Part shown: in pieces, positions 1 through 54,788 of the stretch
Numbering within the stretch: the stretch's first letter is position 1
Layout of the letters: each line of letters opens with the position of its first letter
Assembly: GCF_014303395.1 (NCBI RefSeq)
Contig: NZ_CP060298.1
Coordinates: forward strand, 2,480,001-2,544,000
Direction: 5' to 3'
Source of the DNA: Nakamurella sp. PAMC28650
GTDB lineage: Bacteria > Actinomycetota > Actinomycetes > Mycobacteriales > Nakamurellaceae
Length of the DNA stretch: 64,000 nucleotides
The notes under the pieces: generated by a model
Databases searched by the model: none
What the model saw: only the letters and a program-made list of their open reading frames with translations
Told to the model about the DNA's origin: nothing
Translations under genes and position numbers: made by a program

Positions 1-793
1 CGTCCGCCATGACGGCCAGCACGGCGTCGATGGGCTTGCCGGCGTCGCTGGTGCTGACCACGGTGACGGTGGAGCGGGCCGTGGAGAAGGTGACCGGGAT
101 GTGCGGCCGGGTCATCGTGGTGATGAGGACCTCGTGCTCCTCCCGGTCGTCGGCGTGCCGTGGCATCGGGACCATCAGCACGCCTTCGGGGAACGACCAG
201 CGGTACTGCTCGTGCTGGTGTCCCTCCGGGCCGAAGGTGGCCTTCTCGAAGAGGACCTTGTTCGTGACGTCCTTCCCGTCGACCCAGACCTGGTAGATCC
301 GCGCTCCGAGTTCCCGCGGATCGAGCCCGCCGGGCAGGAAGGCCTCGGTCTTCACCTCCACCTGGACGAACCGCGGCATGAACACGATCTTGGAACTGGT
401 CGCGACCAGTTCACCGGTGGTGTCCGCCTCGAGCGGCTTCAGCAGGTTCTCCAGCCAGGTCGGCTCGGGGATGGCGTCGTTGTTCAGCAGCACCGAGTAC
501 TTCGTGCGGGTCCGACGCAGGGCCACGTTGTTACCGCCGGCGAACCCCCGGTTGACGTAGGAGGTGAGGAGCTCGACCTCCGGGTAGCCCTCGGTGATCA
601 GGTCGCGGGAGGGGTCGGCAGATGCGTTGTCCACCACCACCGTGCGGAACGACCCGGCCGGCATCGTCTGGGCGGCCAGGCCGTCCAGGCATCCCGGAAG
701 CATGTGGGCGCCGTTGTAGTTGACGATGATGACGGTGGCGATCGCGTCGGTCGCTGCGTGCTCCGGCGTCGACGGAACTGGTGGTGCGGTCAT
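1..793 (-). CDS. Glycosyltransferase family 2, N-terminal part (cut by window edge)
   Basis: Family 2 (GT-A fold) glycosyltransferase, expected to move a sugar from a nucleotide-sugar donor during cytoplasmic polysaccharide assembly. 264 residues are visible and the reading frame is still open at base 1, so the C-terminus is missing. The N-terminal strand VIIVNYNG lies at residues 22-28, VVVDNASAD at 52-60, and the DXD-like acceptor site LLNNDA at 102-107. The ATG (793-791) overlaps the stop of the upstream Wzt gene as ATGA, so the two are translationally coupled. Position in a Wzm-Wzt-GT2 operon suggests it works on the exported polymer. The fold is secure; donor and acceptor cannot be read from sequence. 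Confidence 0.88.
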   Translation of the reverse strand, partial: MTAPPVPSTPEHAATDAIATVIIVNYNGAHMLPGCLDGLAAQTMPAGSFRTVVVDNASADPSRDLITEGYPEVELLTSYVNRGFAGGNNVALRRTRTKYSVLLNNDAIPEPTWLENLLKPLEADTTGELVATSSKIVFMPRFVQVEVKTEAFLPGGLDPRELGARIYQVWVDGKDVTNKVLFEKATFGPEGHQHEQYRWSFPEGVLMVPMPRHADDREEHEVLITTMTRPHIPVTFSTARSTVTVVSTSDAGKPIDAVLAVMAD

Positions 794-2082
794 CGGAGAA
801 CCCCTGTACGTACGGCGGTCACGCCTGCTGGAGCCGCATCGTCGAGGCCGGTGGTCATCTGGTGGTCGAGCAGCATCAGGCCGGGGGCCAGATGGTCTTC
901 GATCCGGTGGACCTGTGCGGATCTGGTGTGCGCCAGGGTCTTCCCGTCCCTGTCGAAGACCTGGACCGACACGCGGATGACGGCGCGGATCGGCATCCGG
1001 GCGCCGAAGGAGAAGCGCATCCACCACCGGCCGCTGTCGGCCGGTAGGTCGTTCCGGTAGGCGGTGGCCGAGAACAACGGGAGGTCCAGCGGGCCCACCG
1101 CCATCACCTCGACCCGATCGATGAGCGAAGCCCAGTGGTCGTCGACCCGCACCTCGGTGACGATGTCGAAGTCCTCACGGGGCGCGATGGCGGCGACGGG
1201 CCGGTCCCCGTGCGGCGTCGAGACGAAGATCCGGCCGAACTCGATACCTCCGTCCGGAACCAGCGTGAGCGGTTTCGGCGGCTCGTCGGTGCCCATGATC
1301 CGGCGCAGCGTCTCGATGGCACCCTCCGGTTCGCTGTCGTCCACGATCACGCCCTTGTTCAGGACGATGGCCCTGGTGCACAGCTCCTGGACCTGGGAGA
1401 GCGAGTGCGAGACGAACAGGATGGTCTTGCCGTTCTCCTGGAATTCCTGGATCTTCTCCATGCACTTGCGCTGGAAGGCCTCGTCGCCGACGGCGAGCAC
1501 CTCGTCCACCAGCAGGACGTCGGGATCGACGTGGATCGCGACCGCGAAGCCCAGCCGGACGTACATGCCGGACGAGTAGTGCTTCACCGGCTGGTCGATG
1601 AATTCGGCCAACTCGGAGAACTCGATGATCGACTCCATCGCCGCATCGGTCTCCAGCCGGCTGAGCCCGAGCAGTGACGCGTTGAGGTAGACGTTCTCGC
1701 GTCCGGTGAGCTCGCCGTTGAAACCGGCGCCCAGCTCGAGCAGGGAGGCGATCCGACCCTCGACGGTCACCTTTCCCGAGGTCGGCCTCAGGATGCCGGA
1801 CAGGATCTTGAGCATCGTCGACTTGCCCGAACCGTTGGGACCGATCAGGCCGACGGTCGAGCCGGGCATGATGTCAGCGCTGAAATCACTGATCGCGACG
1901 AAGTCCTCGGACTGCTCGGCGCGGCGGCGGATGATCTGTTCCTTGAGCGAGGTCGCACGTACGCTACTGGTCCGGAACTGCTTGCGCACGTTCCGCGCCG
2001 AGATGATCGGCATGACCGCCCCGGGGGCAGGCGAGGCGTCGGCAGGGCCGGCCTCCGGCATGGGATCGGCGGAGAGGCTCAT
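790..2082 (-). CDS. wzt: Polysaccharide ABC exporter, ATP-binding subunit (Wzt-like)
   Basis: Nucleotide-binding subunit of an ABC-2 exporter for lipid-linked polysaccharide. Walker A GPNGSGKST is at residues 81-89, the ABC signature YSSGM at 169-173 and Walker B VLLVDEVLAVGD at 189-200. Residues from about 260 to 430 form an extra C-terminal domain. In the Wzt family such a domain binds the glycan terminus in some systems; here that is inference. At 430 aa it is longer than TagH-like subunits that lack this domain. It directly abuts the permease gene upstream with no intergenic bases and overlaps the GT2 downstream by ATGA, giving a tight three-gene operon. Confidence 0.93.
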   Translation of the reverse strand: MSLSADPMPEAGPADASPAPGAVMPIISARNVRKQFRTSSVRATSLKEQIIRRRAEQSEDFVAISDFSADIMPGSTVGLIGPNGSGKSTMLKILSGILRPTSGKVTVEGRIASLLELGAGFNGELTGRENVYLNASLLGLSRLETDAAMESIIEFSELAEFIDQPVKHYSSGMYVRLGFAVAIHVDPDVLLVDEVLAVGDEAFQRKCMEKIQEFQENGKTILFVSHSLSQVQELCTRAIVLNKGVIVDDSEPEGAIETLRRIMGTDEPPKPLTLVPDGGIEFGRIFVSTPHGDRPVAAIAPREDFDIVTEVRVDDHWASLIDRVEVMAVGPLDLPLFSATAYRNDLPADSGRWWMRFSFGARMPIRAVIRVSVQVFDRDGKTLAHTRSAQVHRIEDHLAPGLMLLDHQMTTGLDDAAPAGVTAVRTGVLR

Positions 2083-2997
2083 TCAGATGTTTTCCGCGAA
2101 GTCGGCCGACATCCGCTTGTACACGGCGAACCCGAGGGCGAAGATCGCCGCCGAGATGGCGGCGCCCAGGGCCAGGTGCTCCAGGTAGAAGGACCACTGG
2201 GTGCTGACCAGCACCTTGTCCGTCGACCCGTTGATGGGTACGTCGGCCGCGTAGATGGCGCGCTGCATGGTGACCACCACGGAGGCCATCGGATTGACCC
2301 AGTAGAGCCAGGCCCAGCCGCCGAGTTCGTGGTAGACCTGCACGATCGCGTAGACGATGGGGTTGACCCAGAAACCGGCCATCAGCAGGATCTCGACGAT
2401 GTGGGTGGTGTCCTTGTAACGGACGTTGAGTGCGGCCACCAGGAACGAGACGCCGACGGCAAGGACGCCGGCCACCGCGACGGCCGGGAAGATCAGGATC
2501 AGCCCTGGCCCGATCATCGCCGTGTAGCCGGTCGCGGCCATCACCACCATCATCGTCCCTAGCTGCAGCACCAGATGGATCAGGTTGAATCCGACGGCCG
2601 CCAGCGGGAGCACCGTCAGGGGGAACGGGACCTTCTGGACCAGCCCCGCATTTCCGATCACGCATCCGCATGCGGTCTGCACGGACCCGGAGAAGAAGTT
2701 CCAGATCAGCAGACCGGCCATCAGGTAGTACCCGAAGTGCGGGATCCCCGACTTCAGCACCACGCCGAAGACGAAGGAGTAGACCACCAGCAGCACGAGT
2801 GGATTGGCCAGGGACCACAGGAATCCGAGCACACTGCCCTGGTACTTGACCTGGAGGTCTTTCCGGATGATGCCGCTCAACAGCTCCCAGCGGAGACGGT
2901 TCTGCGCCCGTGCCCGATCGACAACCACCAAGGTCAGATTTCCGTTTCGCTCGAGTGTCGTGGCCACGGACCGCGTCCGCAGCGCAGGTGGCGCCAT
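2083..2997 (-). CDS. wzm: Polysaccharide ABC exporter, permease subunit (Wzm-like)
   Basis: ABC-2 type membrane permease that partners the Wzt-like ATPase encoded immediately downstream. The protein has about six hydrophobic segments. A cytoplasmic N-terminal stretch ending in KDLQVKYQGSVLGFLWSLAN precedes the first one, a hallmark of Wzm/TagG permeases. The ATG at 2997 gives 304 aa. A GTG at 3024 would add nine residues (GCSPRRRI type) but includes the rare ATA codon, so I prefer 2997. First gene of the operon; the 222 bases up to the divergent gene at 3220 should hold promoters for both directions. Confidence 0.9.
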   Translation of the reverse strand: MAPPALRTRSVATTLERNGNLTLVVVDRARAQNRLRWELLSGIIRKDLQVKYQGSVLGFLWSLANPLVLLVVYSFVFGVVLKSGIPHFGYYLMAGLLIWNFFSGSVQTACGCVIGNAGLVQKVPFPLTVLPLAAVGFNLIHLVLQLGTMMVVMAATGYTAMIGPGLILIFPAVAVAGVLAVGVSFLVAALNVRYKDTTHIVEILLMAGFWVNPIVYAIVQVYHELGGWAWLYWVNPMASVVVTMQRAIYAADVPINGSTDKVLVSTQWSFYLEHLALGAAISAAIFALGFAVYKRMSADFAENI

Positions 2998-3219
2998 TAT
3001 TCGGCGCCGGGGAGAACAGCCCACCGCAGACTCGCCGCGGGGCCCGGACGCGACTGGAATCGGTCTTCCCGAGGCCGGCAGGGCCGTCCGATCATATCCC
3101 GGGACCCCCTGCGGACCGGTCAGGCAAGGCTACCCGGCCGGAACGATGCCCGGATTCGACCATCTCTTTACCCCGTTCGGGTATTCTCAGAAGGTGATCA
3201 CACTAGCGAACTCGGCTCG

Positions 3220-5040
3220 ATGACGGCCGGCACCAGCATCGAGCGGCCGGTCGACACCGGCACGGCTTCCGACGGCGCTGCGGCCGCCGCGCCCGATGCG
3301 TCGGGGACCGTCGACCCGTCGGTGCGGCCGCAGGTCGCAGCGTCACCGCGCGGGATCCCGTGGCTCCGCGTTGGGGCCGTGCTCGGTGTGCTGGTACCCC
3401 TGGCGATCATGGTCCGCTTCGCCTGGCACTCCGCCCCGTCGTTCGACGGGGCGATGAACCTGCAGGTCGCCAGCAATCTGAGCGACGGCCTCGGTTTCGT
3501 CCGCAACTACGGCGGCGTCACCCTGTTCCCGGGCGAGATCCAGACCTCGGGGGCCTTCCTGTTCCTGGCCGCGGCCCTGATCAAGGTGCTGGGTACCTCC
3601 AGCATCGTCTTCGAGTTGCCCAACCTCATCTTCCTGGCCCTGCTGCTCGTCACGGTGAGCCTGACATTGCGCCGCTGGCCGGTGATGCGGATTATCGGGC
3701 CGTCGGCAGTGTTGTTCTGCGTCGGGGGACGACCCACGGCTACGCAAGCCTTGCCCGGCATGGTGGAGAACGGGCTCCACGGCTACGGCGAATACGTCGT
3801 GGCGGCCCTGGTCCTGGCCGGCTTCGCCTTGGTCGGTGCCGCAGCGAGTGGAATGCGTCGCCCCGTGGTCGCGTCCGGCGTGGCCTGGGTGCTCGTCGGT
3901 CTCGCGTTCACCGTCAAGATCATCGCTGCCCTCGCGTTCCCGGTTCTGGCCGTCGGAGTGATCGGGCTCGCCCTGGCCCGTCCGGCGATCAGGCGCTGGA
4001 AGCTGGCCGCCTCGGTTCTGCTCGCCGCCGTTCCGGTCGCGCTCGTGGAACTGCAACGGCTGGTCTCGTTGGGGTCGGTGAGGGCGTTCACGAACTATTG
4101 GAGCAATCAACTCGCCAGTGCCGGGGCCCAGGCGGGCGTCTCCAGCGGTGGGGTGGCCGATGCCGCTGCCCAGACGGGCGTCGGCCAGGGCCTCGTGACT
4201 GCCGATCCCAAGATCTCGATCTTGCGGAAGATCGGGGATCACCTGCATCTGCTCGGGGCGGCCACCGGGATCGATACCGCCATCCTGCTCATGGTGTTGG
4301 CACTGCCCTTCGCGGTGCTGGTCGGGCTGTTCCTGGCCAGACGTGAATCCTGGCGTACCTGGCTCGCCAGGCCGGCGGCCCTGCTGTCCGTGATGCTGGC
4401 CATCTACGCCGGCGGCTACCTGGTCTGGTGGCTCGCCATCACCCCGACCTCGAAGGCATGGCTCCGCCGGGTGATCATCGCGCTCGTGGTCATCGCACTG
4501 CTCTACCTGCTGCTGATCGGAATGGCCAAGGACCACTGGAATGCCCGGGCTTCCCGTCCCGTCGTCGTGCGCAGCACACGCCGCAACACGATCCTGGGCA
4601 TCGCCTGGGGCGTGGCGGGGGTGCTGGGCTTCCTGAGCATCCTGCCGGGCATCACCACGGCAAATCTGCAACTGTCCGTCGCGCTGGGCAGCCAGACTCT
4701 CCCGACCGTCGGCGACGCGCAGGTCGAGCAGGTCGCCACGGCGGCCGAATCGCTGCAGAAACAGGGCGACACCCTGTACGGCAACGGTTGGTGGTCGGCA
4801 CCGGTCGTCGCCCTGTACGGCGACCTCGCGCTCGGCAACCTGGAACTCGTGAAACCGTGTTCCGCCGACATCGTCGCCGGCAAGGCTTACCTGATCTGGG
4901 ACTACTTCGCCGCGCACCTGTCGAGCGCCGCGCCGATCAGCACGATCTACGACTACACCCGCGTGGACGTGGGGGCCAGCCACGACGGCTCCTTCTGGAA
5001 GGTGAGCCTCAAGGCCGGCATCACGTGTCCGGCGGCCTGA
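3220..5040 (+). CDS. Multi-pass membrane protein, probable GT-C type glycosyltransferase
   Basis: 606-residue integral membrane protein with an Ala/Pro-rich cytoplasmic N-terminus (about 45 residues) and roughly ten hydrophobic helices. After the first helix comes an acidic first loop, SAPSFDGAMNLQVASNL, the location where GT-C enzymes carry a catalytic Asp, and a soluble C-terminal part ending in Cys-Pro-Ala-Ala. This layout resembles polyprenyl-phosphate-sugar-dependent glycosyltransferases (GT39/GT83-like), but I see no family-defining motif. The longer upstream reading frame runs antisense to the permease gene and is not coding; ATG 3220 is the first credible start. It is divergent from the exporter and heads a run of glycosyltransferase genes. 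Confidence 0.72.
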   Translation: MTAGTSIERPVDTGTASDGAAAAAPDASGTVDPSVRPQVAASPRGIPWLRVGAVLGVLVPLAIMVRFAWHSAPSFDGAMNLQVASNLSDGLGFVRNYGGVTLFPGEIQTSGAFLFLAAALIKVLGTSSIVFELPNLIFLALLLVTVSLTLRRWPVMRIIGPSAVLFCVGGRPTATQALPGMVENGLHGYGEYVVAALVLAGFALVGAAASGMRRPVVASGVAWVLVGLAFTVKIIAALAFPVLAVGVIGLALARPAIRRWKLAASVLLAAVPVALVELQRLVSLGSVRAFTNYWSNQLASAGAQAGVSSGGVADAAAQTGVGQGLVTADPKISILRKIGDHLHLLGAATGIDTAILLMVLALPFAVLVGLFLARRESWRTWLARPAALLSVMLAIYAGGYLVWWLAITPTSKAWLRRVIIALVVIALLYLLLIGMAKDHWNARASRPVVVRSTRRNTILGIAWGVAGVLGFLSILPGITTANLQLSVALGSQTLPTVGDAQVEQVATAAESLQKQGDTLYGNGWWSAPVVALYGDLALGNLELVKPCSADIVAGKAYLIWDYFAAHLSSAAPISTIYDYTRVDVGASHDGSFWKVSLKAGITCPAA

Positions 5041-7454: not shown

Positions 7455-8332
7455 CCGGCGTCGGAGTCGTCACCGTCACCTTCTCGCCCGGCCCGACACT
7501 GCCGTCCCTGCTGGATTCGATCGGCCTGGCCACTGATCGCGACGTGCGGGTGGTCCTGGCCGACAACGGTTCCACCGACGGGAGTGTCGAGGCCGCGGCC
7601 GAACGCGACGGTGTCACGCTCCTGCGCACCGGAGGCAACGTCGGCTACGGCATCGCCGCCAACCTCGGGATCGCCGAGCTCGGCGGGGAGGTGGACTTCG
7701 TGCTGCTCACCAATCCGGATGTGGTCCTGCGACCGGGGTCGATCGACGAGTTGGTCGCGGTGGCCCTGCGGTACCCGACCGCCGGCGCCGTCGGGCCGTT
7801 GATCCTGACCGAGGACGGCACCGTGTTCCCCTCCGCCCGGCGGCTGCCCTCGATCGGCTCCGGCATCGGACACGCGCTGCTCGGCTGGTGGTACCCGAAG
7901 AACCCGTGGACGCGCGCCTACCGCGACGACCGGGCGGCACCGGTCGAGCGGGAGGCGGGCTGGTTGTCCGGCGCGTGTCTGCTCCTCCGGCGGGAGGCGT
8001 TCGAGGCGGTCGGCGGGTTCGATCCGTCGTACTTCATGTACTTCGAGGATGTGGATCTCGGAGACAGGTTGGCACGTCACGGCTTTCCGAACATCTACGC
8101 TCCGTCGGCGGTGGTGGTGCACGTCGGAGGGGACTCGGCCGGCAAGCACCCGCGGGAGATGGCGCTCGCGCACCACCACAGTGCCTACCACTACCTCTCC
8201 AGCCGCTACGCCCGGTGGTGGCAGGCCCCCCTGCGGCTGGTGCTGCGCGTCGGCCTGGCGGCCAGGGCGACGCTGGCCGCACGCTCGGCCAAGGTCGCCG
8301 GCGGTGCCGCGCTGCCGGAGCGCAAGGCGTAG
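7451..8332 (+). CDS. Glycosyltransferase family 2 (rhamnosyltransferase-like)
   Basis: 293-residue GT2 enzyme of the WbbL/rhamnosyltransferase-like group. VVTVTFSPG at the N-terminus, VLADNGSTDGS at about residue 35, LLTNPDVVL as the metal-binding DXD equivalent near residue 80, and the acceptor-side motif FMYFEDVDLGDRL near residue 196 are visible. The GTG start overlaps the preceding stop as GTGA, indicating coupling. In mycobacteria the gene next to the GDP-mannose pyrophosphorylase is wbbL, the linker rhamnosyltransferase. A similar dTDP-rhamnose dependent role is plausible here because rmlA is the next gene on this strand, but this is inference. Confidence 0.88.
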   Translation: MTGVGVVTVTFSPGPTLPSLLDSIGLATDRDVRVVLADNGSTDGSVEAAAERDGVTLLRTGGNVGYGIAANLGIAELGGEVDFVLLTNPDVVLRPGSIDELVAVALRYPTAGAVGPLILTEDGTVFPSARRLPSIGSGIGHALLGWWYPKNPWTRAYRDDRAAPVEREAGWLSGACLLLRREAFEAVGGFDPSYFMYFEDVDLGDRLARHGFPNIYAPSAVVVHVGGDSAGKHPREMALAHHHSAYHYLSSRYARWWQAPLRLVLRVGLAARATLAARSAKVAGGAALPERKA

Positions 8333-8363
8333 CACGGCACGGCACGGCACGGCACGGCACGGC
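8333..8363 (+). repeat. CACGG pentanucleotide tandem repeat, six copies
   Basis: Six perfect head-to-tail CACGG units begin one base after the TAG of the GT2 gene. The array is short enough to be a slippage-prone microsatellite. It lies outside the coding region, so copy-number change would not alter the protein unless the stop codon were lost. Confidence 0.9.
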
Positions 8364-8404
8364 GACAGCAAGGCACAGCGAGGGCGGCGGACCCAACCGC
8401 TCCG

Positions 8405-9824: not shown

Positions 9825-10811
9825 ATGCCACGCGCCCTGATCACCGGAATCACCGGACAGGACGGTCTCTACCTCGCCGAACTCCTGTTGTCCAAGGGCT
9901 ACGAGGTGTTCGGCCTGATCCGGGGGCAGAACAACCCGAAGCGGGCGCTGGTGGAGAAGGAGGTGCCCGGTGTCGTGCTGCTGACCGGCGACATCACCGA
10001 CCTGTCCAGCCTGATCCGCGCGTACAACGTGGCCAAGCCGGACGAGGTGTACAACCTCGGGGCCATCTCGTTCGTCGCGTACTCGTGGGAGAACGCCGCC
10101 CTGACCAGTGATGTCACCGGGATGGGCGTGCTGAACATGCTCGAGGCCACCCGCCTGTACTGCGGTGACGACGTGTCCAAGGTGCGCTTCTACCAGGCGT
10201 CGTCCTCGGAGATGTTCGGCAAGGTCCAGCACGTCCCGCAGAGCGAATCGACACTGCTGTGGCCGCGGTCCCCGTACGGCGTGGCCAAGGTCTACGGCCA
10301 CTACATGACGATCAACTATCGCGAGTCCTACGGGATGCACGCGAGTTCCGGCATCCTGTTCAACCACGAGTCGCCCCGTCGCGGCAGTGAGTTCGTCACC
10401 CGCAAGGTCACCAGGGCGGTGGCCCGGATCAGCCTCGGCCTGCAGGACACGCTGTCGCTCGGCAACCTCGATGCCAAGCGCGACTGGGGTTTTGCCGGCG
10501 ACTACGTGGAGGCGATGTGGCTCATGCTGCAGGCCGCCGAGGCCGACGACTACGTCATCTCCACCGGCGAGACCCACTCGATCCGCGAGCTGCTGGACAT
10601 CGCCTTCACGCGGGTCGGCATCGACGACTGGTCCCGGTACGTGTTCGTCGACCCGAAGTTCTTCCGGCCGGCCGAGGTCGACCTGCTCATCGGGGACGCG
10701 TCCAAGGCGAAGAACCGTCTGGGTTGGACGCCGAAGGTGTCGTTCCCGGAACTGGTCAACATGATGGTCGACAACGATCTGGCCGAGCAGCGCGCGCTGT
10801 CGGGCAAGTAG
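9825..10811 (+). CDS. gmd: GDP-mannose 4,6-dehydratase
   Basis: Short-chain dehydrogenase/reductase that converts GDP-D-mannose to GDP-4-keto-6-deoxymannose with bound NADP. Visible: the nucleotide loop [14 protein letters not shown], the catalytic stretch ASSSEMFG, the Tyr-x3-Lys pair in [12 protein letters not shown], the subfamily markers [15 protein letters not shown] and [14 protein letters not shown]. 328 aa, normal length. A strong AAGGAG site precedes ATG 9825. It is followed after only 22 bases by a divergent paralogue. GDP-mannose could come from manA and the guanylyltransferase in this window. No GDP-fucose synthase or GDP-rhamnose reductase is visible, so the end sugar is unresolved. 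Confidence 0.96.
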
Positions 10812-10833: not shown

Positions 10834-11796
10834 ATGGCAGTCGTTTTCATCACCGGCGTCTCGGGACAGGACGGCGGGTATCTCGCGGAGCAGTTGCTGG
10901 CCGGCGGCGACGAGGTGCACGGACTGGTCCGGGAACAGGACCGCCCGGCACCGGGCGCGCAGGGTCCGCGACTGGACGACGCCCACCTGCACGTCACCGA
11001 CCTGACGGATTTCGCGGGCCTGTCCGCCCTGATCAAGGACGTGGCCCCGGACGAGATCTACAACCTCGCCGGGATGTCGTCGGTGGCCAGGTCCTGGGTG
11101 GAGCCGGTGGCCACCGGTGAGGTGACCGGCCTCGCCGTGGCCGCGGTGCTGCAGGCGGCCTGGGAGCTGTCCGAGTCCAGCGGCCGCGTGGTGCGGGTCG
11201 TGCAGGCGGCCAGCGCGGAGATCTTCGGCAACCCGGCGACCAGCCCGCAGGACGAATCGACGGTCATTGCGCCCGTGACGCCCTACGGCGGCGCCAAGGC
11301 CTACGCCCACCACATGGTCGGGGTGTACCGCGGTCGTGGTCTGCACGCCGTGTCGGCGATCCTCTACAACCACGAGTCGCCCCGGCGGCCGCCCACCTTC
11401 GTCACCCGCAAGATCACCAGGACCGCGGCCCTGATCGCACGCGGGGAAGCCGACGAACTGGCCCTGGGCAATCTCGACGCGCGGCGCGACTGGGGCTGGG
11501 CCCCTGACTACGTCGACGCGATGGTCCGGGCGGCCCGGCACAGCAAGGCGCAGGACTACGTGATCGCCACCGGTGTCTCGCACTCCGTGTCCGAGTTCGT
11601 CGCGGCGGCCTTCGGCCGGGCCGGCATCGACGACTGGGAGCGGTACGTCCGGGTCGATCCCGCCTTCGTCCGACCCGTCGACGCCTTCGAGCTGGTGGGT
11701 GATTCCACCAGGGCCCGCACCGAACTGGGCTGGGCTCCCACCCGTTCGTTCGCCGACATCGTCGCCGCCATGGTCGATACGGATCTATCGGCTTGA
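10834..11796 (+). CDS. GDP-mannose 4,6-dehydratase paralogue
   Basis: Second, clearly diverged GMD-like protein of 320 aa directly after gmd. It keeps the cofactor loop GVSGQDGGYLAEQLL, Ser and Glu of the active site in AASAEIFGN, Tyr-x3-Lys in TPYGGAKAYAH and the GMD markers NHESPRR and TRKITR. Differences from its neighbour include PVTPY for PRSPY and a shortened, charged loop after the first strand. It may be a second GMD, a subunit that pairs with the first, or an enzyme with changed substrate. An RMD-type reductase is less likely because GMD-specific motifs persist. Its stop overlaps the GtrA gene start (TTGA). Confidence 0.85.
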   Translation: MAVVFITGVSGQDGGYLAEQLLAGGDEVHGLVREQDRPAPGAQGPRLDDAHLHVTDLTDFAGLSALIKDVAPDEIYNLAGMSSVARSWVEPVATGEVTGLAVAAVLQAAWELSESSGRVVRVVQAASAEIFGNPATSPQDESTVIAPVTPYGGAKAYAHHMVGVYRGRGLHAVSAILYNHESPRRPPTFVTRKITRTAALIARGEADELALGNLDARRDWGWAPDYVDAMVRAARHSKAQDYVIATGVSHSVSEFVAAAFGRAGIDDWERYVRVDPAFVRPVDAFELVGDSTRARTELGWAPTRSFADIVAAMVDTDLSA

Positions 11797-12275
11797 CCGC
11801 GCCGCACGAGCGCGCGCCGGACGGTCGACCCCAGCTGCCGGCCACCACCGAGGCTCCCGGTCCGTTGCTCCGCCTCGTCCACGATCAGCGGCTGGCCTTC
11901 GTGCTGGTCGGCGGGCTCAACACGCTGCTCAGCTTTGCCGCATTCGTGCTGTTCAGCCGGATCACCTCGCTCTGGGGTGGGGATCTCGCCGTTCTCGGTG
12001 CCCAGCTGATCGCCATTCCGGTCGCCTTCGTCCTGCATCGGACCTTCGTCTTCCGCGTCACCGGTCACGTGCTGCGGGATCTGGGACGGTTCGTCCTCGT
12101 CAACGCCATTCCGATCACCGTGAACCTTGCGGTGCTGCCCGTCCTGACGACGGTCCTCGGGTGGCCGGTGCTGCTGTCGCAGATTGGTTTCACCCTGGTC
12201 TGGGTGATCTCGAGCTACTTCCTGCACCGGGGTTTCTCGTTCCGGCGCACCACCGCCGAAAGAGAGGCGGAATGA
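11793..12275 (+). CDS. GtrA family membrane protein
   Basis: 160-residue protein with four hydrophobic helices from about residue 28 to 150, matching the GtrA family (small proteins proposed to flip polyprenyl-phosphate-linked sugars). Markers are FVLVGGLNTLLSF in the first helix, VAFVLHRTFVFR between helices two and three, and SSYFLHRGFSFRR at the end, the typical Phe/Arg-rich loops. The start is TTG overlapping the gmd-paralogue stop, and its own stop overlaps the next GT2 start by ATGA. A GtrB-like transferase is encoded 6.6 kb away (18917-20035), so a Gtr-type modification system is plausible. Confidence 0.87.
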   Translation: MTAPHERAPDGRPQLPATTEAPGPLLRLVHDQRLAFVLVGGLNTLLSFAAFVLFSRITSLWGGDLAVLGAQLIAIPVAFVLHRTFVFRVTGHVLRDLGRFVLVNAIPITVNLAVLPVLTTVLGWPVLLSQIGFTLVWVISSYFLHRGFSFRRTTAEREAE

Positions 12276-13120
12276 ATCAGTACGGCGCCGTTCCCCGGGT
12301 GTCGGTGGTGGTACCGGCGTTCAACAATGCACCGCACATCGAGGCCACCGTGCATTCGATCCTGTCGCAGACGTACTCGGATTTCGAGTTGATCATCTCC
12401 GACCACTCCTCGACGGACGGCACCTGGGAGAGGTTGCAGGCCGTGGCCGCCGACCCGCGGGTGCGTCTGATGCGGATCGCGTCCGGCGGAGGGGCCCCGG
12501 CCAATTGGCGGGCGGTCACCGACCAGGGTCGGGGCGAGTTCCTCAAACTCGTCTGCGGCGACGACCTGCTCTATCCGACCAGCCTCGCCGAACAGGTCGC
12601 GGCCTTCGACCAGCATCCCTCGGCGGTGCTGGTCGCCTCCCGTCGGGACGTGGTGGACGAGACGGGGGTGCCGGTCGTGCGTTCCCGAGGTCTGCAGCAT
12701 CTGCACGGGCTGGTGGAGGGCGTCACGGCGATCCGCCGGACGGTGCGCGCCGGGACGAACGTCTTCGGCGAGCCGGCCTGTGTGATGTTCCGCCGACAGG
12801 TGCTGGCCGACAGCGGAGGATGGGACGCCCGATCGCCCTATCTGATCGATCAGGCGACCTGTTCGCGCGTGTTGATGTCCGGGTCGATGGTCGCCGTCCG
12901 GCAGTCGTTGGCCGGGTTCCGGATCAGTGCCCAGCAGTGGAGCGTCACCCTCGCGGGGGAACAGTCCCGGCACGCCAGGGCCTTCCACAAACTGATCGCC
13001 GCCGAACATCCCGGTCTGCTGAGCCGGGGGGACATCTGGATCGGCGACGCGCGGGCCACCCTGATGGCCGCCAAGCGACGGGCGGCGTACGTCTGGTTGC
13101 GCCGTCGGATGGGACGCTGA
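12272..13120 (+). CDS. Glycosyltransferase family 2
   Basis: 282-residue GT2 enzyme. The N-terminal block VSVVVPAFNNAPHIEATVHS, the SILSQTYSDFELIISDHSS strand with its Asp, and LVCGDDLLYP (the DXD-like metal site) are characteristic. No membrane helix is visible, so it should be a cytoplasmic or peripheral enzyme. The ATG (12272) overlaps the GtrA stop as ATGA, completing a coupled run rmlA-gmd-gmd2-gtrA-GT2. Third-position GC is as high as in its neighbours, so no sign of recent transfer. Substrate unknown. Confidence 0.88.
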   Translation: MNQYGAVPRVSVVVPAFNNAPHIEATVHSILSQTYSDFELIISDHSSTDGTWERLQAVAADPRVRLMRIASGGGAPANWRAVTDQGRGEFLKLVCGDDLLYPTSLAEQVAAFDQHPSAVLVASRRDVVDETGVPVVRSRGLQHLHGLVEGVTAIRRTVRAGTNVFGEPACVMFRRQVLADSGGWDARSPYLIDQATCSRVLMSGSMVAVRQSLAGFRISAQQWSVTLAGEQSRHARAFHKLIAAEHPGLLSRGDIWIGDARATLMAAKRRAAYVWLRRRMGR

Positions 13121-13141
13121 ACGTCTGGCAAAATTCGGTCC

Positions 13142-13819
13142 ATGTCCGACCCCGACCATCCCCCCGCCGATCCCATGGGCGATTCTTCCGGCCCCGCGTC
13201 ACCGGCCCACCGTGCACCGTCCACGGCCGGTGAGGCCTACGCGGAGCGGCTGAACAAGCTGCAGAGCAAGCGTTGGAAGAAGTGGTTGAACGTGCAGGCG
13301 CCGTACCGGGCCAACCTGCGCCGCTACCGCCTCGGGCGGACCCTGGACGTGGGGTGCGGGAACGGCCGCAATCTGGGCGCCCTCGCCGAGGGCTCGGTGG
13401 GCGTCGACCACAATCCGCATCTGGTGCGGACCACCCGCGAACTGGGCCTCGAGGCCTACACCTCGGAGGAGTTCTTCGCCGATCCGACGCTCTCCCGCCC
13501 CGGTGGTTTCGATGCGATCCTGGCCGCCCACCTGATCGAGCACCTGCCGTACGACGAGGCCGTCTCGGTCATCCGGAGCTACCTGCCGATGGTGCGGCCC
13601 GGAGGCCGGGTCGTGCTGATCACCCCGCAGGAGCGTGGCTACGCGTCGGATCCCACCCACCTGGTCTTCACGGACTTCCAGGCCCTGCGCAGACTGTCCA
13701 CCGAACTCGGCCTGCGGACCACCCGGCAGTATTCGTTCCCCTTCCCGCGGTGGTGCGGAAAGTTGTTCATCTACAACGAGTTCAACCACCAGGCGCAGGT
13801 CCCTGATCACACGACCTGA
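13142..13819 (+). CDS. SAM-dependent class I methyltransferase
   Basis: 225-residue Rossmann-fold methyltransferase. Motif I TLDVGCGNGRNLG at about residue 67, the second-strand acid in GVDHNPHLV, and FDAILAAHLIEHLP (motif IV of the UbiE/COQ5-like group) are visible. Residues 1-25 are a Pro/Ser-rich tail that may be disordered. The glycosyltransferase context suggests sugar or glycolipid methylation, but small-molecule targets are possible. There is no clear ribosome-binding site before ATG 13142, so the start may be leaderless or lie slightly downstream. A tandem 8-base repeat runs across its stop codon. Confidence 0.82.
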   Translation: MSDPDHPPADPMGDSSGPASPAHRAPSTAGEAYAERLNKLQSKRWKKWLNVQAPYRANLRRYRLGRTLDVGCGNGRNLGALAEGSVGVDHNPHLVRTTRELGLEAYTSEEFFADPTLSRPGGFDAILAAHLIEHLPYDEAVSVIRSYLPMVRPGGRVVLITPQERGYASDPTHLVFTDFQALRRLSTELGLRTTRQYSFPFPRWCGKLFIYNEFNHQAQVPDHTT

Positions 13820-13834
13820 CGACCTGACGACCTG
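13811..13834 (+). repeat. ACGACCTG tandem repeat, three copies, across a stop codon
   Basis: Three perfect 8-base ACGACCTG units span the stop codon (13817-13819) of the methyltransferase gene. Because the unit is not a multiple of three, gain or loss of a unit upstream of the stop would shift the frame and change the C-terminus. Confidence 0.85.
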
Positions 13835-13913
13835 GCGATTTGAGGAACCGGACGGCCCGACGAAGGGGACCGCCGCCCCGCCGCGCCCAGGGTTCTGATC
13901 AGCCCGGGTCTGG

Positions 13914-15911
13914 TCAGCCTGCCGCGCGCACGATGATCGCCGCGAGGCTCGCGCGCTCGGCCGGCGTCAGGGCGCGCCGGACTTCCGCCAGGGATCGGTC
14001 CAGGGAGAAATAGGCCCACCGGCCGGTGCTGCTGACCAGCTCCGCCTCGCCGGTGTAGGGCACCAGGCGCGCTTCCAGCACCACCCCGTGGTCCTTCGTC
14101 AGATTGCGATCGACCACGATCCCGGCGAAACCCACGATGGCCAGGTTCTCCGTCATCTGCGCCGCGGGTTCGGCCGAGACGGTCTTCGGCCAGAGGGTCT
14201 GCGGTCGTCCCTTGATGCCGCCCCCCGACCACCGCAGGGTCGTCGAATGCAGGAACAGTTTGAGCTGGTCGGTATCGATTCCGTGGTTGAGCGCGCCGCC
14301 CTCGGGAAAGGCGAGGTAGGGCGTCTGGTAGATCATCGACCCGGCCGGGACCCGCGACTCCAGCGTTGTGACGAACGCATCGTCACTGGCGTAGGTGCGG
14401 TCGCCGTAGTTCGGGGTGGCCCACCCGGATGACTGGTCCGCCACCCCGAGCACCAGGATCAGCAGGGCCGCCAGGGGCGTGCCCCGGCGGGCGGCCCACC
14501 GCTTCGGCCCCGACCCGGCCCTGGCTCCCCGTCGGCGTCGTGCGGCGTCGAGACCGGACTCGACGGCCACGCCCAGACCGGCCAGCGAGAGGAGCGTGAT
14601 CAGGATCGACATCCGGTTCCAGCCGCGGATGCTCGCCGTCAGGAAGGAGATCAGCGTCCCGAGACCACCGATGGTGCCGGCCAGGAAGGCCAGGCAGGTC
14701 AGCGCGGACAGATAGCGGAACGTCTGCCGCCGTCGCAGCCGGACCGGGTCGGTGATCTCCGGTCGTGGACGACGCAGCAGAACGGCGAAGACGGTTCCGG
14801 TGAGCATCAGGAAGCCGGCGGTACCCACCAGGCCGAGCGAGGCCTGTTCCCCGCTCAGCTGGTACTGCGAGTCGTACAGGCTCCGCAGATGGGCGAACGG
14901 CGGCCAGGGGTGACGCGCTGCCGGCAGGATCAACGACATGAACTTCAGGGCGTAGGTCTCGGCCTGGGCCGGTTGCCGGATGAAGGCGGCGGCATCCGAG
15001 CCGTGGATGTGCTCGTAGATGATGTCCGGCAGCATCGCCCCGACGAAGACGGTCAGCAGGAGCGCACCTGCCACCGCGCCGCCCAGGAATCGTCGTAGGT
15101 TCCGGGTGCGCAACAGGGCCAGCAGGATGGCCGGGGCCAGCAGGATGGCGGTGAACACCCCGTAGTAGGCGCCGTCCAGGGTGACCAGGGTGATGGACAG
15201 GAAGGTGGCGGCGCCGCGTCCGGTCAGCGCCCCGAAGAGCCCCCTTGCCACCTTCGGTAGCCCGGCCGCCCGTCCGGTCAGCCTGCGCAGACCCCAGATC
15301 GGCTCGCCGCGCAGCACCGTCAGCACCACCACGAGGCCGAGCGGAACCGCCCAGTACTCGCTGAGAAAATACTGGGATTCCCTGCGCCAGAGGTGATACG
15401 GGGCGACGGCGAACAGCACCGCCAGTGCCACGCTCAGCCACCCCGACAGTCCACAGCGCCGGAGGAAGTACACCGCCGTCACCGCGGCCAGCGGGAACCC
15501 GGCGATGTAGTAGACGTTGAAGACGATGGGCCACTGGTGGCTGAACAGGCCGAAGACCTTGATCATCATCGGCTGGAGTTCGTCGGAGAACGGGAAGTCG
15601 TGCAGATGCTGCCCGTAGGGCGCGCCCAGGTCCGGTTGTGACTCGTACCAACCGGTCTGCAGCACCGTCTTGAAGTACGTGGCCGATGACGTGCCGTCGC
15701 CGCTGTAGACGAAGGGGACCGACCAGGTCGCCCGCCACAGCCGCATCATGATCGTGGTGGCCACCATGGCCAGCACCGCGCTCGCGAGATACAACCAGGC
15801 CCCGGGGGAACGCTCACCGCGATCCGTTGCCGATGGCGGCCCCGAACCGAGGTCGGCGTCAGAGCCGGTGTCGGCGGGGGGAACGGTGGTGGTGTCGATG
15901 GTCGCGGTCAT
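13914..15911 (-). CDS. Large polytopic membrane protein, GT-C/YfhO-like
   Basis: 665-residue protein with about eleven hydrophobic helices and a soluble C-terminal domain. It begins MTATIDTTTVPPADTGSDAD and has a first external loop with conserved acids (VYSGDGTSSATYFK, PDLGAPYGQHLHDFPFSDE). VAPYHLWRRESQYFLSEYW follows a later helix. The arrangement is that of GT-C-like or YfhO-like membrane glycosyltransferases that use polyprenyl-phosphate sugars. A longer upstream frame is antisense-type noise. The ATG at 15911 overlaps the stop of the adjacent paralogue by ATGA. Tandem with that paralogue and downstream of a GtrB-like gene, it could be the Gtr-system transferase. Confidence 0.8.
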   Translation of the reverse strand: MTATIDTTTVPPADTGSDADLGSGPPSATDRGERSPGAWLYLASAVLAMVATTIMMRLWRATWSVPFVYSGDGTSSATYFKTVLQTGWYESQPDLGAPYGQHLHDFPFSDELQPMMIKVFGLFSHQWPIVFNVYYIAGFPLAAVTAVYFLRRCGLSGWLSVALAVLFAVAPYHLWRRESQYFLSEYWAVPLGLVVVLTVLRGEPIWGLRRLTGRAAGLPKVARGLFGALTGRGAATFLSITLVTLDGAYYGVFTAILLAPAILLALLRTRNLRRFLGGAVAGALLLTVFVGAMLPDIIYEHIHGSDAAAFIRQPAQAETYALKFMSLILPAARHPWPPFAHLRSLYDSQYQLSGEQASLGLVGTAGFLMLTGTVFAVLLRRPRPEITDPVRLRRRQTFRYLSALTCLAFLAGTIGGLGTLISFLTASIRGWNRMSILITLLSLAGLGVAVESGLDAARRRRGARAGSGPKRWAARRGTPLAALLILVLGVADQSSGWATPNYGDRTYASDDAFVTTLESRVPAGSMIYQTPYLAFPEGGALNHGIDTDQLKLFLHSTTLRWSGGGIKGRPQTLWPKTVSAEPAAQMTENLAIVGFAGIVVDRNLTKDHGVVLEARLVPYTGEAELVSSTGRWAYFSLDRSLAEVRRALTPAERASLAAIIVRAAG

Positions 15912-17932
15912 GGGGCCACCTTCGTGAGGCCTTCTGCGATCCGGGCGCGCTGGGCCACCGTCGTACGGGCATCGAGTGCCGCGATGGCGCGGCCGAGCGA
16001 CAGGTAGACGTAACGCCCGTCGGGGCTGGTCAGCAACGGCTGCCCCAGCAGCGGGACGAGGGCGTCGGTCCACTGCCGACCGCCGTCCGGCAGGCTCGCG
16101 CGATCGATGGTGACGCCGACGAAGCCGATGGCCGCCAGGTAGTGGACCAGGGTGGTGGGGGCGGACTGCACCAGGTGGGTGGGCCAGTCGGTCTGCACCG
16201 GGCCGGCGATTCCGCCGGCCGAGAATCGCAGCTGCGAGGACTGCAGCCAGAGCGCCAACTGGGCACCGGTGGCGGGGGCGTCGGCCGCGCCGGAGTGGGT
16301 GAACGGCACCCATGGCAGCTGGAAGATCATCGAGCCGGCCGGCTCCCGGCGTTCGATGCCCTGCACGAACTGCCGGTCCGACGCACTGCCGGCGGCATTG
16401 GCCCGGTAGTCCGGCACGGCCCCGGTCAGCGACTGGTCGCCGGCACCGATCAGCAGCACCAGGACGGCCAGGGCCGGTAGCGCGCCACGGGCGAATCGGC
16501 CGACAGTGGGGCGCCCGCCGGTGGACGAGGACGCCCGGATCCGTCCGGCCACCCGTTCCAGCACCAGTCCCGAGGCCGCCAGGGCCGGCAACGCCAGCAC
16601 GATCGAGATCCGGCCCCAGCCGCTGAAACCGCCGGCCAGCAGCGAGATGATCGTGCCCGGACCGCCGAGTACACCGAGGCAGAAGATCACCAGGCCCAGG
16701 ACGGTCATCTCGTTCAGCAGCCGGATCCGGTGCACCCGGTCGGGCGACGGCTCCGACGTCCGGTACCGACCTGTCAGCGCGGTGAGCGCCACCCCCATGA
16801 TGACCAGCAGCCCGAACGCCGCCACGAGCCCGAGCGCCGGGGTCTCGCCCGGTAGCGGGTACCCGGAGTCGTAGGCGGCCCGGAAGGAGGCCAGGAAGGG
16901 CAGCGGCTCGCCGGGCGGCGGTAGCACCAGCGCGGCGAACTTCATCGCATAGGTCTCGGAGCCGGGCGTTGACGGACCCGTCGGCGCCCCCCCGGCCCAC
17001 GACGAACGGGCCAGGGCGGGCGCGGCGGCCAGCAACGAGGCACCGGCCAGCACCGCCAGCGCCACGCACGTCCCGCCCAGCGGCCGGACCGTTCGCGAAC
17101 GGATGAAGCCGGCCAGCCCACCGGTGATCAGCAGCAGTACGGCGAAGAGCAGGTAGTCGCCGCCGCTATAGGCCACCAGGGCCAGGATCGCGGCCGTGCC
17201 TGCGCCCCGGCCCGTCAGTGCGGCGAGCACCGGATGGACATGAAGCCGGCGGCCCCAGAGCGGCTCGGCGCGCATCGCGCGCACCACCAGCAGCATGATC
17301 AGCGGCACGGTGGAGTAGGCCGACAGGAAGATCTGGCTCTCGTTGTGCAGGAAGTGGTACGGGGCGACCGCGAACAGCACGGACAGCACCACGACGACGA
17401 CGGGGCTCAGGCCGCAGGCGCGGAAGAACGGCACGGCCGCCACGGCGGCGAGCAGGAACCCGAGCAGGAAGAAGACGTTGAACGCGACCGCCCAGTCGTG
17501 GGTGAAGAGTCCCAGCAGCTTGATCACCACGGCGTGCAGATCTCCGGGTGAGGTCGGGTAGGCGTACCGCTGACCGAAGGGCACCCCGAGATCGGGTTGG
17601 TAGTCGTACCAACCGGTGGTCAGGACGTTCTTGAAGTATCCGGCGTTCGCCAGTGCTCCGCCGGAATACCAGAAGGGCACCGACAGGTCGGCCTGCCACA
17701 GCCGCATCATCAGGGTCAGCACGACCGCCGTCAGCCCGGCGCTGGTCGCGTAGGGGATCCACCGGCGCGCAGTGCCGCCGGTCGGCGGGGCCGGCTCGGT
17801 CGGCGGGGCCGGCACGGTCGGCGGGGTCGACTGGGACAGCCGGCAAGACTCGGGAAGGGAGGGGGTCGGGGACTGCGCCGGTACTGGGGAGTGCGGCGCC
17901 GTCGGGGGCTGCGGGGGTGTCGGGGGCTGCAT
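15908..17932 (-). CDS. Large polytopic membrane protein, GT-C/YfhO-like (tandem paralogue)
   Basis: 674-residue paralogue of the protein encoded next to it. It shares VPFWYSGGALANAGYFKN, GWYDYQPDLGVPFGQR, VAPYHFLHNESQIFLSAYS, the helix pattern and a soluble tail with SLPDGGRQW. The N-terminal 55 residues are Pro/Thr/Ser-rich, encoded by GC-rich near-repeats around 17780-17830, and probably disordered in the cytoplasm. In the first loop the Asp of the neighbour's YSGDG is replaced (YSGGA), so the two may differ in catalytic competence or substrate. The ATG at 17932 gives a sensible start; the stop at 15908-15910 overlaps the next start by ATGA. Confidence 0.8.
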   Translation of the reverse strand: MQPPTPPQPPTAPHSPVPAQSPTPSLPESCRLSQSTPPTVPAPPTEPAPPTGGTARRWIPYATSAGLTAVVLTLMMRLWQADLSVPFWYSGGALANAGYFKNVLTTGWYDYQPDLGVPFGQRYAYPTSPGDLHAVVIKLLGLFTHDWAVAFNVFFLLGFLLAAVAAVPFFRACGLSPVVVVVLSVLFAVAPYHFLHNESQIFLSAYSTVPLIMLLVVRAMRAEPLWGRRLHVHPVLAALTGRGAGTAAILALVAYSGGDYLLFAVLLLITGGLAGFIRSRTVRPLGGTCVALAVLAGASLLAAAPALARSSWAGGAPTGPSTPGSETYAMKFAALVLPPPGEPLPFLASFRAAYDSGYPLPGETPALGLVAAFGLLVIMGVALTALTGRYRTSEPSPDRVHRIRLLNEMTVLGLVIFCLGVLGGPGTIISLLAGGFSGWGRISIVLALPALAASGLVLERVAGRIRASSSTGGRPTVGRFARGALPALAVLVLLIGAGDQSLTGAVPDYRANAAGSASDRQFVQGIERREPAGSMIFQLPWVPFTHSGAADAPATGAQLALWLQSSQLRFSAGGIAGPVQTDWPTHLVQSAPTTLVHYLAAIGFVGVTIDRASLPDGGRQWTDALVPLLGQPLLTSPDGRYVYLSLGRAIAALDARTTVAQRARIAEGLTKVAP

Positions 17933-17936
17933 GCGG

Positions 17937-18920
17937 TCAGCGCACCGGCTTCTGGGCGGCGCGGAGCAACCCGGCGGCGGTCGCGGCGATGCCGGCGGGC
18001 AGCGTGGTCAGCAGCCGGCGGTCGATCTGCGGCCAGACGACCGACCGGAACCGCAGGTCCCGCACCTGGAACTGGGCGTTCGCCGAGCTTCCCAGCACCA
18101 CCGGGGGCGGTCGCTTGCACACCTGTCGGCAGGTCGCGATCAGGCTCGCGATGGTGGTGCCCTGTTGCGAGGCGAGCAGTTTGACGATCGGGGTACCCAC
18201 GGGATGGCCCGCCGGTTGCCGGAGGCGGAGCATGTCGGCGATCATCGCCGCGCAGTCGTCGACGTAGAGGTAGTCGCGGATGGTGTCGAGGGAGACGTAG
18301 ATCGAGATCGGCTGCCGGGTGATGCTGCCACGGCACAGCGCGCTGATCAGGCCCTGCGCCTTCGCGGGGTTCTGCCCCGGACCGTAGAGGTTGGCGATCC
18401 GGCCGATCTGGACGGTGTCGCCGGTGCGTTGCGCGTACTCCAGCAGGGCATCCTCGGCGGCCAGCTTGGCCCGGCCGTAGTCGGAGATGGGTGCGGCCGG
18501 GTCGAGTTCGGACTGGGGACCGTCGCCGGCTCCGGCGTACAGCCCGCCGGCGGAGGACGCCAGGAAGAAGGTGCCGCGACCGGTGATCCTGGGCCGCCGC
18601 GCCAGCCGGTCCAGGAAGGCGGAGAGCGTGGCGACCTCGCGGGCCAGGTCGGAGGCGGAGGTCCCGGTGACACCGGCACCGGCGGCCCACACCACCTGCG
18701 ACGGGAGGTCGAGCCGATCGGCCGCTGCGGTCAGCCGGTCCAGGCCCCGGTCGAGGTCGTCGGCGGTGGAGGGACCCGTCCACGAGATCTGTTGCGCCAG
18801 CACCGGTCCGGCCCCTGCGCGTCGGAGCGTGCCGGTCACGGCGCTACCGAGCAGGCCGCCGGCACCGACCACCCAGGTGGCGCTCTGACCGGCTTCCGCG
18901 GCGGGAGCTTGATGGATCAC
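17937..18920 (-). CDS. NAD-dependent epimerase/dehydratase family protein
   Basis: 327-residue SDR-superfamily protein likely acting on a nucleotide-sugar. The Rossmann loop WVVGAGGLLGSAVTG is at residues 16-30, a Ser-rich strand FFLASSAGGLYAG carries the catalytic Ser, and Tyr-x3-Lys is in ISDYGRAKLAAED. RDYLYVDDCAAM resembles the substrate-side motif of nucleotide-sugar epimerases. The C-terminus ends in a helical segment rich in Ala. It starts at GTG overlapping the upstream GtrB-like stop (GTGA) and ends 5 bases before the next membrane gene. It may supply the sugar used by that transferase, which is inference. Confidence 0.83.
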   Translation of the reverse strand: MIHQAPAAEAGQSATWVVGAGGLLGSAVTGTLRRAGAGPVLAQQISWTGPSTADDLDRGLDRLTAAADRLDLPSQVVWAAGAGVTGTSASDLAREVATLSAFLDRLARRPRITGRGTFFLASSAGGLYAGAGDGPQSELDPAAPISDYGRAKLAAEDALLEYAQRTGDTVQIGRIANLYGPGQNPAKAQGLISALCRGSITRQPISIYVSLDTIRDYLYVDDCAAMIADMLRLRQPAGHPVGTPIVKLLASQQGTTIASLIATCRQVCKRPPPVVLGSSANAQFQVRDLRFRSVVWPQIDRRLLTTLPAGIAATAAGLLRAAQKPVR

Positions 18921-20035
18921 GGAACCGGGTGCGAGCTGTCGTTCCCGACCGTCGAGCGTAGCGCCCGCTCGCCGGCCGCGGGCTCGTCCGGTCTGCGGCT
19001 CCTCGTCGCGGGGCTCCCGGGCGAGGTGTCGACCGGTCGGCCGAGCGGCCCACTCTGCGGATCGCTGACGATCAGGTACAGGGGGCGACCCATGGCCATC
19101 TTCACCGCGACGCCGACGTACTCGGCGATCACCCCCAACGAGAACAGGATGGCACCGCTGCAGACCAGCAACACGACCATCAGCGAGGGCCAGCCCGGCG
19201 GCAGGTCGACCTTCCAGAACAACGAGGACGCGATGAAGTACACCGCCAGCAGCAGACCGCCCACGGCGACCACCAGCCCGAGCAGGCTGACCAGCCGCAG
19301 CGCCCTTGTCCCGCTGGAGAGCACCATTCGCCAGAAGTGCGAGAACAGCGTCCGCACCGAGTAGCCGGACGGCCGCCCGCCCTCGTCGCGTAGTTCCACC
19401 GGGCAGGTGGTGACCTTCTGGGCCACCCAGCTCAGCGCCACGTCGAGGTAGACGCCGGCCCCGGCGTAGGCGGCGACGCTACGGCCGACCTCGCCCAGCA
19501 CCAGCCGCAGGCTCTGGTACTCGGTGGCGTCGGTACCGCTCGTCGAGAGTCGCAGCAGTCGTTTCGACATCCGGGACCCGATGTTGCGCAGCACGCCGTG
19601 CGGCGGACGATTGGTCGGCCGCGCGTACACCACGTCGGCCCTGGCCGCCATCGCGACGTCGAGCATGGCCGGGATCGACGCAGGGTCGTGCTGGCCGTCC
19701 TCGTCCATGGTGACGATCCAGTCGCCGCCGGACGAGGCCATGCCGGCCAGCGTGGCCGGGTGCTGCCCGAAGTTGCGGCTGAGCCAGAGCGGCCGCACGA
19801 CGTCGTACCTCTCGGCCAGATCCCGCAGGACGGCCGCTGATCCGTCCGGACCGTTGTCGTGGACCAGCAGGATCTCGGTGACGCGGAGCCGATGACCGTC
19901 CGGGCTCAGGACGTCCTGCATCAGGGGTTCCAGCTCGGTCAGCAGTGCGGCCAGGGTGCGTTCGCCCTGGTAGACCGGGATCACCACCGAGATCGAATGC
20001 GGGCGTCTCGCGCCGCCCTCGCCAATGGAATCCAT
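18917..20035 (-). CDS. Polyprenyl-phosphate glycosyltransferase (GtrB/ArnC-like)
   Basis: 372-residue GT2 enzyme of the dolichol-phosphate-mannose-synthase type. Cytoplasmic catalytic part: ISVVIPVYQGERTLAALL, ILLVHDNGPDGS, ATLAGMASSGGDWIVTMDED with the metal-binding DED, and QHDPASIP. Two membrane helices follow at about residues 245-270 and 285-310, as in GtrB/ArnC enzymes that load a sugar onto undecaprenyl phosphate. The last 55 residues are polar and Arg/Pro-rich. ATG 20035 is chosen; a nearby ATG at 20039 is out of frame. First gene of a four-gene minus-strand operon with the epimerase and both GT-C-like proteins. Confidence 0.9.
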   Translation of the reverse strand: MDSIGEGGARRPHSISVVIPVYQGERTLAALLTELEPLMQDVLSPDGHRLRVTEILLVHDNGPDGSAAVLRDLAERYDVVRPLWLSRNFGQHPATLAGMASSGGDWIVTMDEDGQHDPASIPAMLDVAMAARADVVYARPTNRPPHGVLRNIGSRMSKRLLRLSTSGTDATEYQSLRLVLGEVGRSVAAYAGAGVYLDVALSWVAQKVTTCPVELRDEGGRPSGYSVRTLFSHFWRMVLSSGTRALRLVSLLGLVVAVGGLLLAVYFIASSLFWKVDLPPGWPSLMVVLLVCSGAILFSLGVIAEYVGVAVKMAMGRPLYLIVSDPQSGPLGRPVDTSPGSPATRSRRPDEPAAGERALRSTVGNDSSHPVP

Positions 20036-54719: not shown

Positions 54720-54788
54720 CGCCGCGGGGAATATTCCGGGATTCGCAGGGGTGGTTGCGTTCGTTCATATCATCTGGGGTGGGTATTG

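Follow-up and report, generated by a model that had tools for sequence, protein, structure and literature searches.

Gtr-type systems, including CsbB-GtcA-YfhO, consist of a GtrB-like polyprenyl-phosphate sugar synthase, a GtrA-family flippase and a GT-C transferase, as outlined in PMC7389260. The same three component types, which are found in the GtrA-GtrB-Gtr(type) proteins of Shigella phages and in the glycosylation of lipoteichoic and wall teichoic acids in Bacillus and Listeria, are encoded in the stretch of DNA analyzed here, a window of 64,000 nucleotides from Nakamurella sp. PAMC28650 (contig NZ_CP060298.1, positions 2480001-2544000 of the single-contig, 5.63 Mb genome, denoted G000). 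The locus differs from the described systems in that its GT-C proteins fall outside the YfhO Pfam family, in the presence of an additional short-chain dehydrogenase/reductase (SDR) and a glycosyltransferase of family 2 (GT2), and in the tandem arrangement of two GT-C genes, of which one, GTC-B, encodes the loop aspartate and the other, GTC-A, does not. We interpret this locus, with a probability of about 0.6, as a Gtr-type, polyprenyl-phosphate-dependent extracytoplasmic glycosylation system in which GTC-A is most likely a non-catalytic partner of GTC-B. The Gtr-type module as such is known; to judge from the sequences, the additions here are the SDR and a GT-C twin that is conserved and probably inactive.

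Two other described systems are relevant to these additions. The Citrobacter pentofuranose system similarly combines a GT-C protein with a cytoplasmic epimerase of the SDR family that acts specifically for the lipid-linked donor, but employs a UbiA-type donor enzyme and a MATE-type flippase instead of the GtrB-type and GtrA-type proteins of the Nakamurella locus (PMC11127046). In that article, the authors note that no further epimerase was known to them from side-chain systems of O antigens, and a literature search for GtrB or GtrA in combination with an epimerase returned this article as the sole result. By analogy, the nearest precedent for the GTC-A/GTC-B pair is mycobacterial EmbA-EmbB, also adjacent GT-C paralogues with about 40% identity, which have been solved as a heterodimer; the loop Asp residues of the Emb proteins are described as required for activity (PMC7341804). 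The same source describes both EmbA and EmbB as arabinosyltransferases, whereas GTC-A lacks the Asp and its pairing with GTC-B is a proposal.

GtrA, the GtrB-like protein, the SDR and the GT-Cs belong to one co-inherited module. The proximity of these genes alone is weak evidence of a common function because the genome holds seven GtrA-family genes. All four proteins were searched for in the 17 genomes available for the genus, and the same seven of these (G000, G001, G006, G011, G013, G014 and G016) contain strong matches to GtrB (E<1e-140, 64-73% identity between species), matches to the SDR (E<1e-77), matches to GtrA (E up to 1.2e-31, all within the module locus) and matches to the GT-Cs. 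In the remaining 10 genomes, there is no match to GtrA or GT-C, and only weak matches to GtrB (10 of 10) and the SDR (9 of 10), as can be expected for families of this size. The chance that one added gene falls in the same seven of the 17 genomes is 1 in 19448 if the genomes are taken as independent, a figure that serves as a guide only because the genomes are related and the genes linked. The genes for GtrA, GtrB, SDR, GT-C and GT2 are clustered in all seven module genomes, and the methyltransferase gene in five. The module genes are all co-directional in G006, G011, G014 and G016, and run in two directions in G000 and G001; in G013, the methyltransferase gene alone is reversed. In the window, they form two convergent units, with gmd1, gmd2, gtrA, the GT2 gene and the methyltransferase gene on the plus strand, and gtrB, the SDR gene, GTC-A and GTC-B on the minus strand; the GTC-A and GTC-B genes overlap by 4 nt, and 4 bases separate the SDR and GTC-A genes.

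An earlier note on this DNA, made from the sequence alone, had proposed a three-part system of gtrA, a gtrB-like gene and two tandem GT-C genes. All four are indeed open reading frames at the positions it assigned to them, and its grouping of flippase, transferase and GT-Cs agrees with the distribution of complete modules among the genomes, inclusive of GtrA in spite of its location on the opposite strand. The three parts are thus linked, but the count was too low: there are at least five linked genes, among them the GT2 gene and the SDR gene, which lies between gtrB and the GT-C genes and had been missed.

The difference between the two GT-Cs in the first loop (YSGDG versus YSGGA), also pointed out in that note, is borne out by alignments of 14 and 19 proteins. 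The aspartate, Asp72 in GTC-B numbering, is present in 17 of the 19 aligned GT-Cs, the only two exceptions being GTC-A, with Gly, and the G001 orthologue, with Asn. In GTC-B, Asp72 lies past the first hydrophobic stretch (residues 38-56); in several GT-C enzymes of solved structure, the Asp proposed as catalytic is described as located past the first transmembrane helix (PMC11127046). GTC-A lacks the Asp that an active GT-C is expected to carry in this first extracytoplasmic loop. The losses extend beyond this position. Among 70 columns that are invariant in 11 Asp-bearing GT-Cs of the genus, 24 of them charged or polar, GTC-A departs at 20 and the G001 orthologue at 16; 12 columns are lost in both copies, eight more in the window copy and four more in the G001 copy. 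Of the charged or polar columns, GTC-A has lost 11 and the orthologue nine, compared with 0-3 when each Asp-bearing protein is left out in turn. Total departures, which amount to 1-17 in the same leave-one-out comparison, separate GTC-A less well because the second G011 protein reaches 17. The outgroup protein from G017 (23% identity) departs at 32 columns, 10 of them charged or polar, and keeps Asp72, Asp110, Arg312, Arg429 and Glu537. For the difference in the loop, the earlier note had offered two acceptors or one inactive partner; the latter fits better and the former less well because several conserved residues are gone in GTC-A, not Asp alone.

GTC-A and GTC-B are 39-42% identical, and in the phylogenetic tree, the GTC-A copies of G000 and G001 form one clade (support 100/99) and the GTC-B copies another (100/100), which places the duplication before the divergence of the two species; how these pairs branch relative to the other groups is weakly determined. 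Two partial rows, scn18 (L022) and G491, were left out of the tree and kept in the residue table, and the weak or partial matches from G232, G510, G668 and G674 are in neither. Between G000 and G001, 303 of 641 residues are identical in GTC-A (47%), 376 of 650 in GTC-B (58%) and 245 of 351 in GtrB. Four-fold sites of GTC-A are 0.46 identical, compared with 0.40 expected at saturation, and the NG86 estimates of nonsynonymous (dN) and synonymous (dS) divergence, rough values because synonymous sites are near saturation, are dN 0.53 and dS 0.93 for GTC-A and dN 0.37 and dS 0.84 for GTC-B. At this distance, a 2-kb frame free of constraint would be expected to have closed. The sequence comparison thus indicates that GTC-A is under constraint, weaker than that on GTC-B.

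The GT-Cs have no above-cut-off match in Pfam or NCBIfam; GTC-B reaches DUF6311 at 20.4 bits (cut-off 27), and GTC-A matches nothing in Pfam. The label 'YfhO-like', given to them in the earlier note, is not supported by Pfam: the YfhO family (PF09586) was matched by one of 14 aligned GT-Cs, with the best E of 0.058, and a PF09586 search of the Nakamurella genome yielded a match at another place only, under the cut-off. A search of the GT-C profile against the sequences of solved structures returned one chance-level match, RnfD (E 0.21). Structural models point to the GT-C fold. The AlphaFold models were built from three-row alignments and have a mean predicted local distance difference test (pLDDT) score of 48.8 for GTC-B and 45.5 for GTC-A. 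In the comparison of the GTC-B model with solved structures, the first 42 of the 50 listed rows are GT-C enzymes, complexes that hold an oligosaccharyltransferase (OST) or subunit U of the glycosylphosphatidylinositol transamidase, with AftA first (Z 16.1, root mean square deviation 4.8, 342 aligned residues) and with yeast OST at Z 15.0 and PglB at Z 14.7. For the GTC-A model, yeast OST and PglB come on top (Z 12.0) and AftA scores Z 11.0. A general caution is that helical models may score up to Z 13 through a shared arrangement. Foldseek ranks AftA, an OST-containing entry and two ArnT entries as the first four matches of GTC-B, although the best E (0.0034, AftA) is not strong alone. The GT-C fold is accepted for GTC-B because the structure rows are consistent, not on account of any single Z, and, on these low-confidence models, both proteins appear to match solved GT-C enzymes.

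The other components conform more readily to known families. The assignments of the GtrA-like and GtrB-like proteins in the earlier note are confirmed by above-cut-off Pfam matches (GtrA_DPMS_TM and Glycos_transf_2, respectively) and, for the latter, by a DEDGQH motif and two to three hydrophobic stretches at the C-terminus. The GtrB-like protein resembles the NCBIfam ArnC and PgfS models across most of its length, under both cut-offs, and its DEDG (a DXD-type motif) is kept in all seven orthologues; the SDR has both the GxxGxxG and YxxxK motifs in seven of seven. The module accordingly includes a small membrane protein of the GtrA family, a membrane-anchored GT2 with a DXD-type motif and, by the low-confidence models, a transferase of the GT-C fold.

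From the gene content, linkage and co-inheritance of the locus, the fold matches, the residue losses and the constraint on GTC-A, we infer a series of biochemical steps, an acceptor and a partner role. The GtrB-like GT2 would transfer a sugar from a nucleotide donor to polyprenyl phosphate; the SDR encoded directly behind gtrB would edit this sugar, either as nucleotide sugar or once it is on the lipid; GtrA would flip the lipid-linked sugar through the membrane; and GTC-B, with its loop-1 Asp, would move it onto an exported cell-surface polysaccharide, assisted by GTC-A, which may contribute to a heteromer, to acceptor binding or to regulation without catalysis. The acceptor is perhaps the polysaccharide exported by the nearby Wzm/Wzt pair, relatives of which lie close to the module in two genomes (G001 and G013) and some 20 kb from it in G011. 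A more specific version, in which an active GT-C and a conserved pseudo-glycosyltransferase form a heteromer that is fed by a GtrB-coupled SDR epimerizing the sugar on the lipid carrier, is put forward as a tentative possibility. If the proposed system is real, it would provide a bacterial example of a GT-C fold retained as a non-catalytic partner, extend to a GtrB-type system the idea of a donor-editing epimerase that comes from a UbiA-type one, and link a GT-C family that is below the Pfam and NCBIfam cut-offs to a pathway. In the open-license literature, no GT-C pseudoenzyme was found among the titles and abstract openings listed. The two genes are a clean test pair, being neighbors in one species, one with and the other without the loop aspartate.

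Both GT-Cs could instead be active, with GTC-A using another base and serving a different acceptor or linkage. This would account for its retention under constraint and for the 46 of 70 invariant columns that both GTC-A and its G001 orthologue keep, and the two or three Asp-bearing GT-Cs in G011, G013 and G014 make several acceptors plausible for the family. Moreover, the loss of the loop Asp need not mean a dead enzyme because the EmbC D286G mutant is reported to retain partial, reduced activity (PMC7341804). Nevertheless, the losses in GTC-A fall on charged or polar residues (11 of 24, compared with 0-3 in the Asp-bearing proteins), and the orthologues differ from each other at position 72 (Gly and Asn), which resembles relaxed constraint more than a new motif; we consider activity of both proteins rather unlikely. 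The partial activity of the EmbC mutant also weighs against a non-catalytic role of GTC-A, as do the restriction of this type of Asp loss to two species, the ambiguity of the alignment near Asp105/Asp110 in the window GTC-A, where an Asp is found one position further, and the quality of the GT-C models, which is too poor for assigning residues to an active site. On the side of the system as a whole, the seven module genomes are few and related, so that their co-occurrence does not amount to seven independent events, and no Wzm/Wzt pair was found in the roughly 20 kb around the module in G006, G014 or G016 (with one weak wzt match in G016), which makes the acceptor assignment unsure.

A role of the GT-Cs in building or branching a backbone, by Aft-like polymerization, rather than in adding side chains is suggested by the arabinosyltransferase AftA as the top structural match of GTC-B and by the polysaccharide locus in the neighborhood. 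However, AftA is barely ahead of the oligosaccharyltransferases for GTC-B and behind them for GTC-A, the donor enzyme is GtrB-like, and no protein of the UbiA or DprE type was detected among the neighboring proteins scanned, which cover part of the window, so that a backbone function appears improbable. Even less probable is that GTC-A is a functionless duplicate in decay: it has lost conserved residues and evolves faster than GTC-B between the same two species, but its frame is full-length in both despite near-saturated synonymous divergence, it sits beside GTC-B at the same place in both, and the duplication predates their split. A Gtr-type system with GTC-A as the probable non-catalytic partner of GTC-B is the preferred reading.

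Outside the genus, the GT-C family is rare, with matches in 10 of the 298 genomes sampled from the order and seven of the 396 sampled from the phylum, both sets searched with a single-protein GT-C query and each including the Nakamurella genome itself. None of 33 stretches from viral contigs was confirmed as holding a GT-C relative, none was found on plasmids, and the GTDB contigs contributed one distant and partial relative (L022). In G099, a genome from another family, gtrA and the GT2 gene lie beside a GT-C gene at a contig end; the GT2 gene is thus linked to gtrA there as well as in all seven module loci. The module lies near cofD, fbiB and manC in G000, G001, G006, G011 and G013 (loci including L023, L025, L027 and L028), and lies beside ftsX-, ftsE- and smpB-looking genes, named from first residues only, in G014 and G016 (L024 and L026); given these differing neighbors, the module occupies at least two different genomic locations. 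In the G014 locus (L026:7543-15833), two GT-C genes precede gtrB and a third follows the SDR gene; each of the three encoded proteins carries the loop Asp.

Table 1. Genes of the glycosylation locus and its surroundings, in window coordinates
Feature	Coordinates	Strand	Basis
gmd1, GDP-mannose 4,6-dehydratase (context)	9825..10811	+	TIGR01472, 423 bits (cut-off 415)
gmd2, second GDP-mannose dehydratase-like SDR (context)	10834..11796	+	PF16363, 320.8 bits; under the TIGR01472 cut-off
Small membrane protein of the GtrA type, putative flippase for a polyprenyl-phosphate sugar; 160 aa, TTG start	11793..12275	+	PF04138 (GtrA_DPMS_TM), 61.7 bits (cut-off 26.1)
Soluble-looking GT2	12272..13120	+	PF00535, 83.4 bits; 4-nt overlap with gtrA
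Methyltransferase, accessory	13142..13819	+	Pfam methyltransferase models
GTC-B, GT-C-fold glycosyltransferase, 665 aa; loop-1 Asp72 (YSGDG), predicted active	13914..15911	-	Alignments; fold matches of low-confidence model
GTC-A, paralogue, 674 aa; Gly (YSGGA) in place of the loop-1 Asp, catalysis predicted to be absent or strongly altered	15908..17932	-	Alignments; residue losses
SDR-family epimerase/dehydratase; GTG start	17937..18920	-	PF01370, 82.2 bits; 4-nt overlap with gtrB
GtrB-like membrane-anchored GT2, putative polyprenyl-phosphate sugar synthase	18917..20035	-	PF00535 (Glycos_transf_2), 72 bits (cut-off 23.3)
Wzt/Wzm-like ABC-2 polysaccharide exporter, candidate source of acceptor	790..3024	-	Relatives near the module in some genomes

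In a scan of the window for promoters and terminators, the signal was not above that of shuffled sequences, and tRNA and Rfam searches of the window gave no match. Within the polysaccharide locus, a large frame (3220-5037) has no Pfam or NCBIfam match. The 5-base unit GCACG is repeated in tandem (8332-8376, 8.8 copies), possibly as a slippage tract, from the stop-codon end of a glycosyltransferase gene onwards, and the window also encodes an RHS/YD-repeat protein of 1546 aa (54786-59426).

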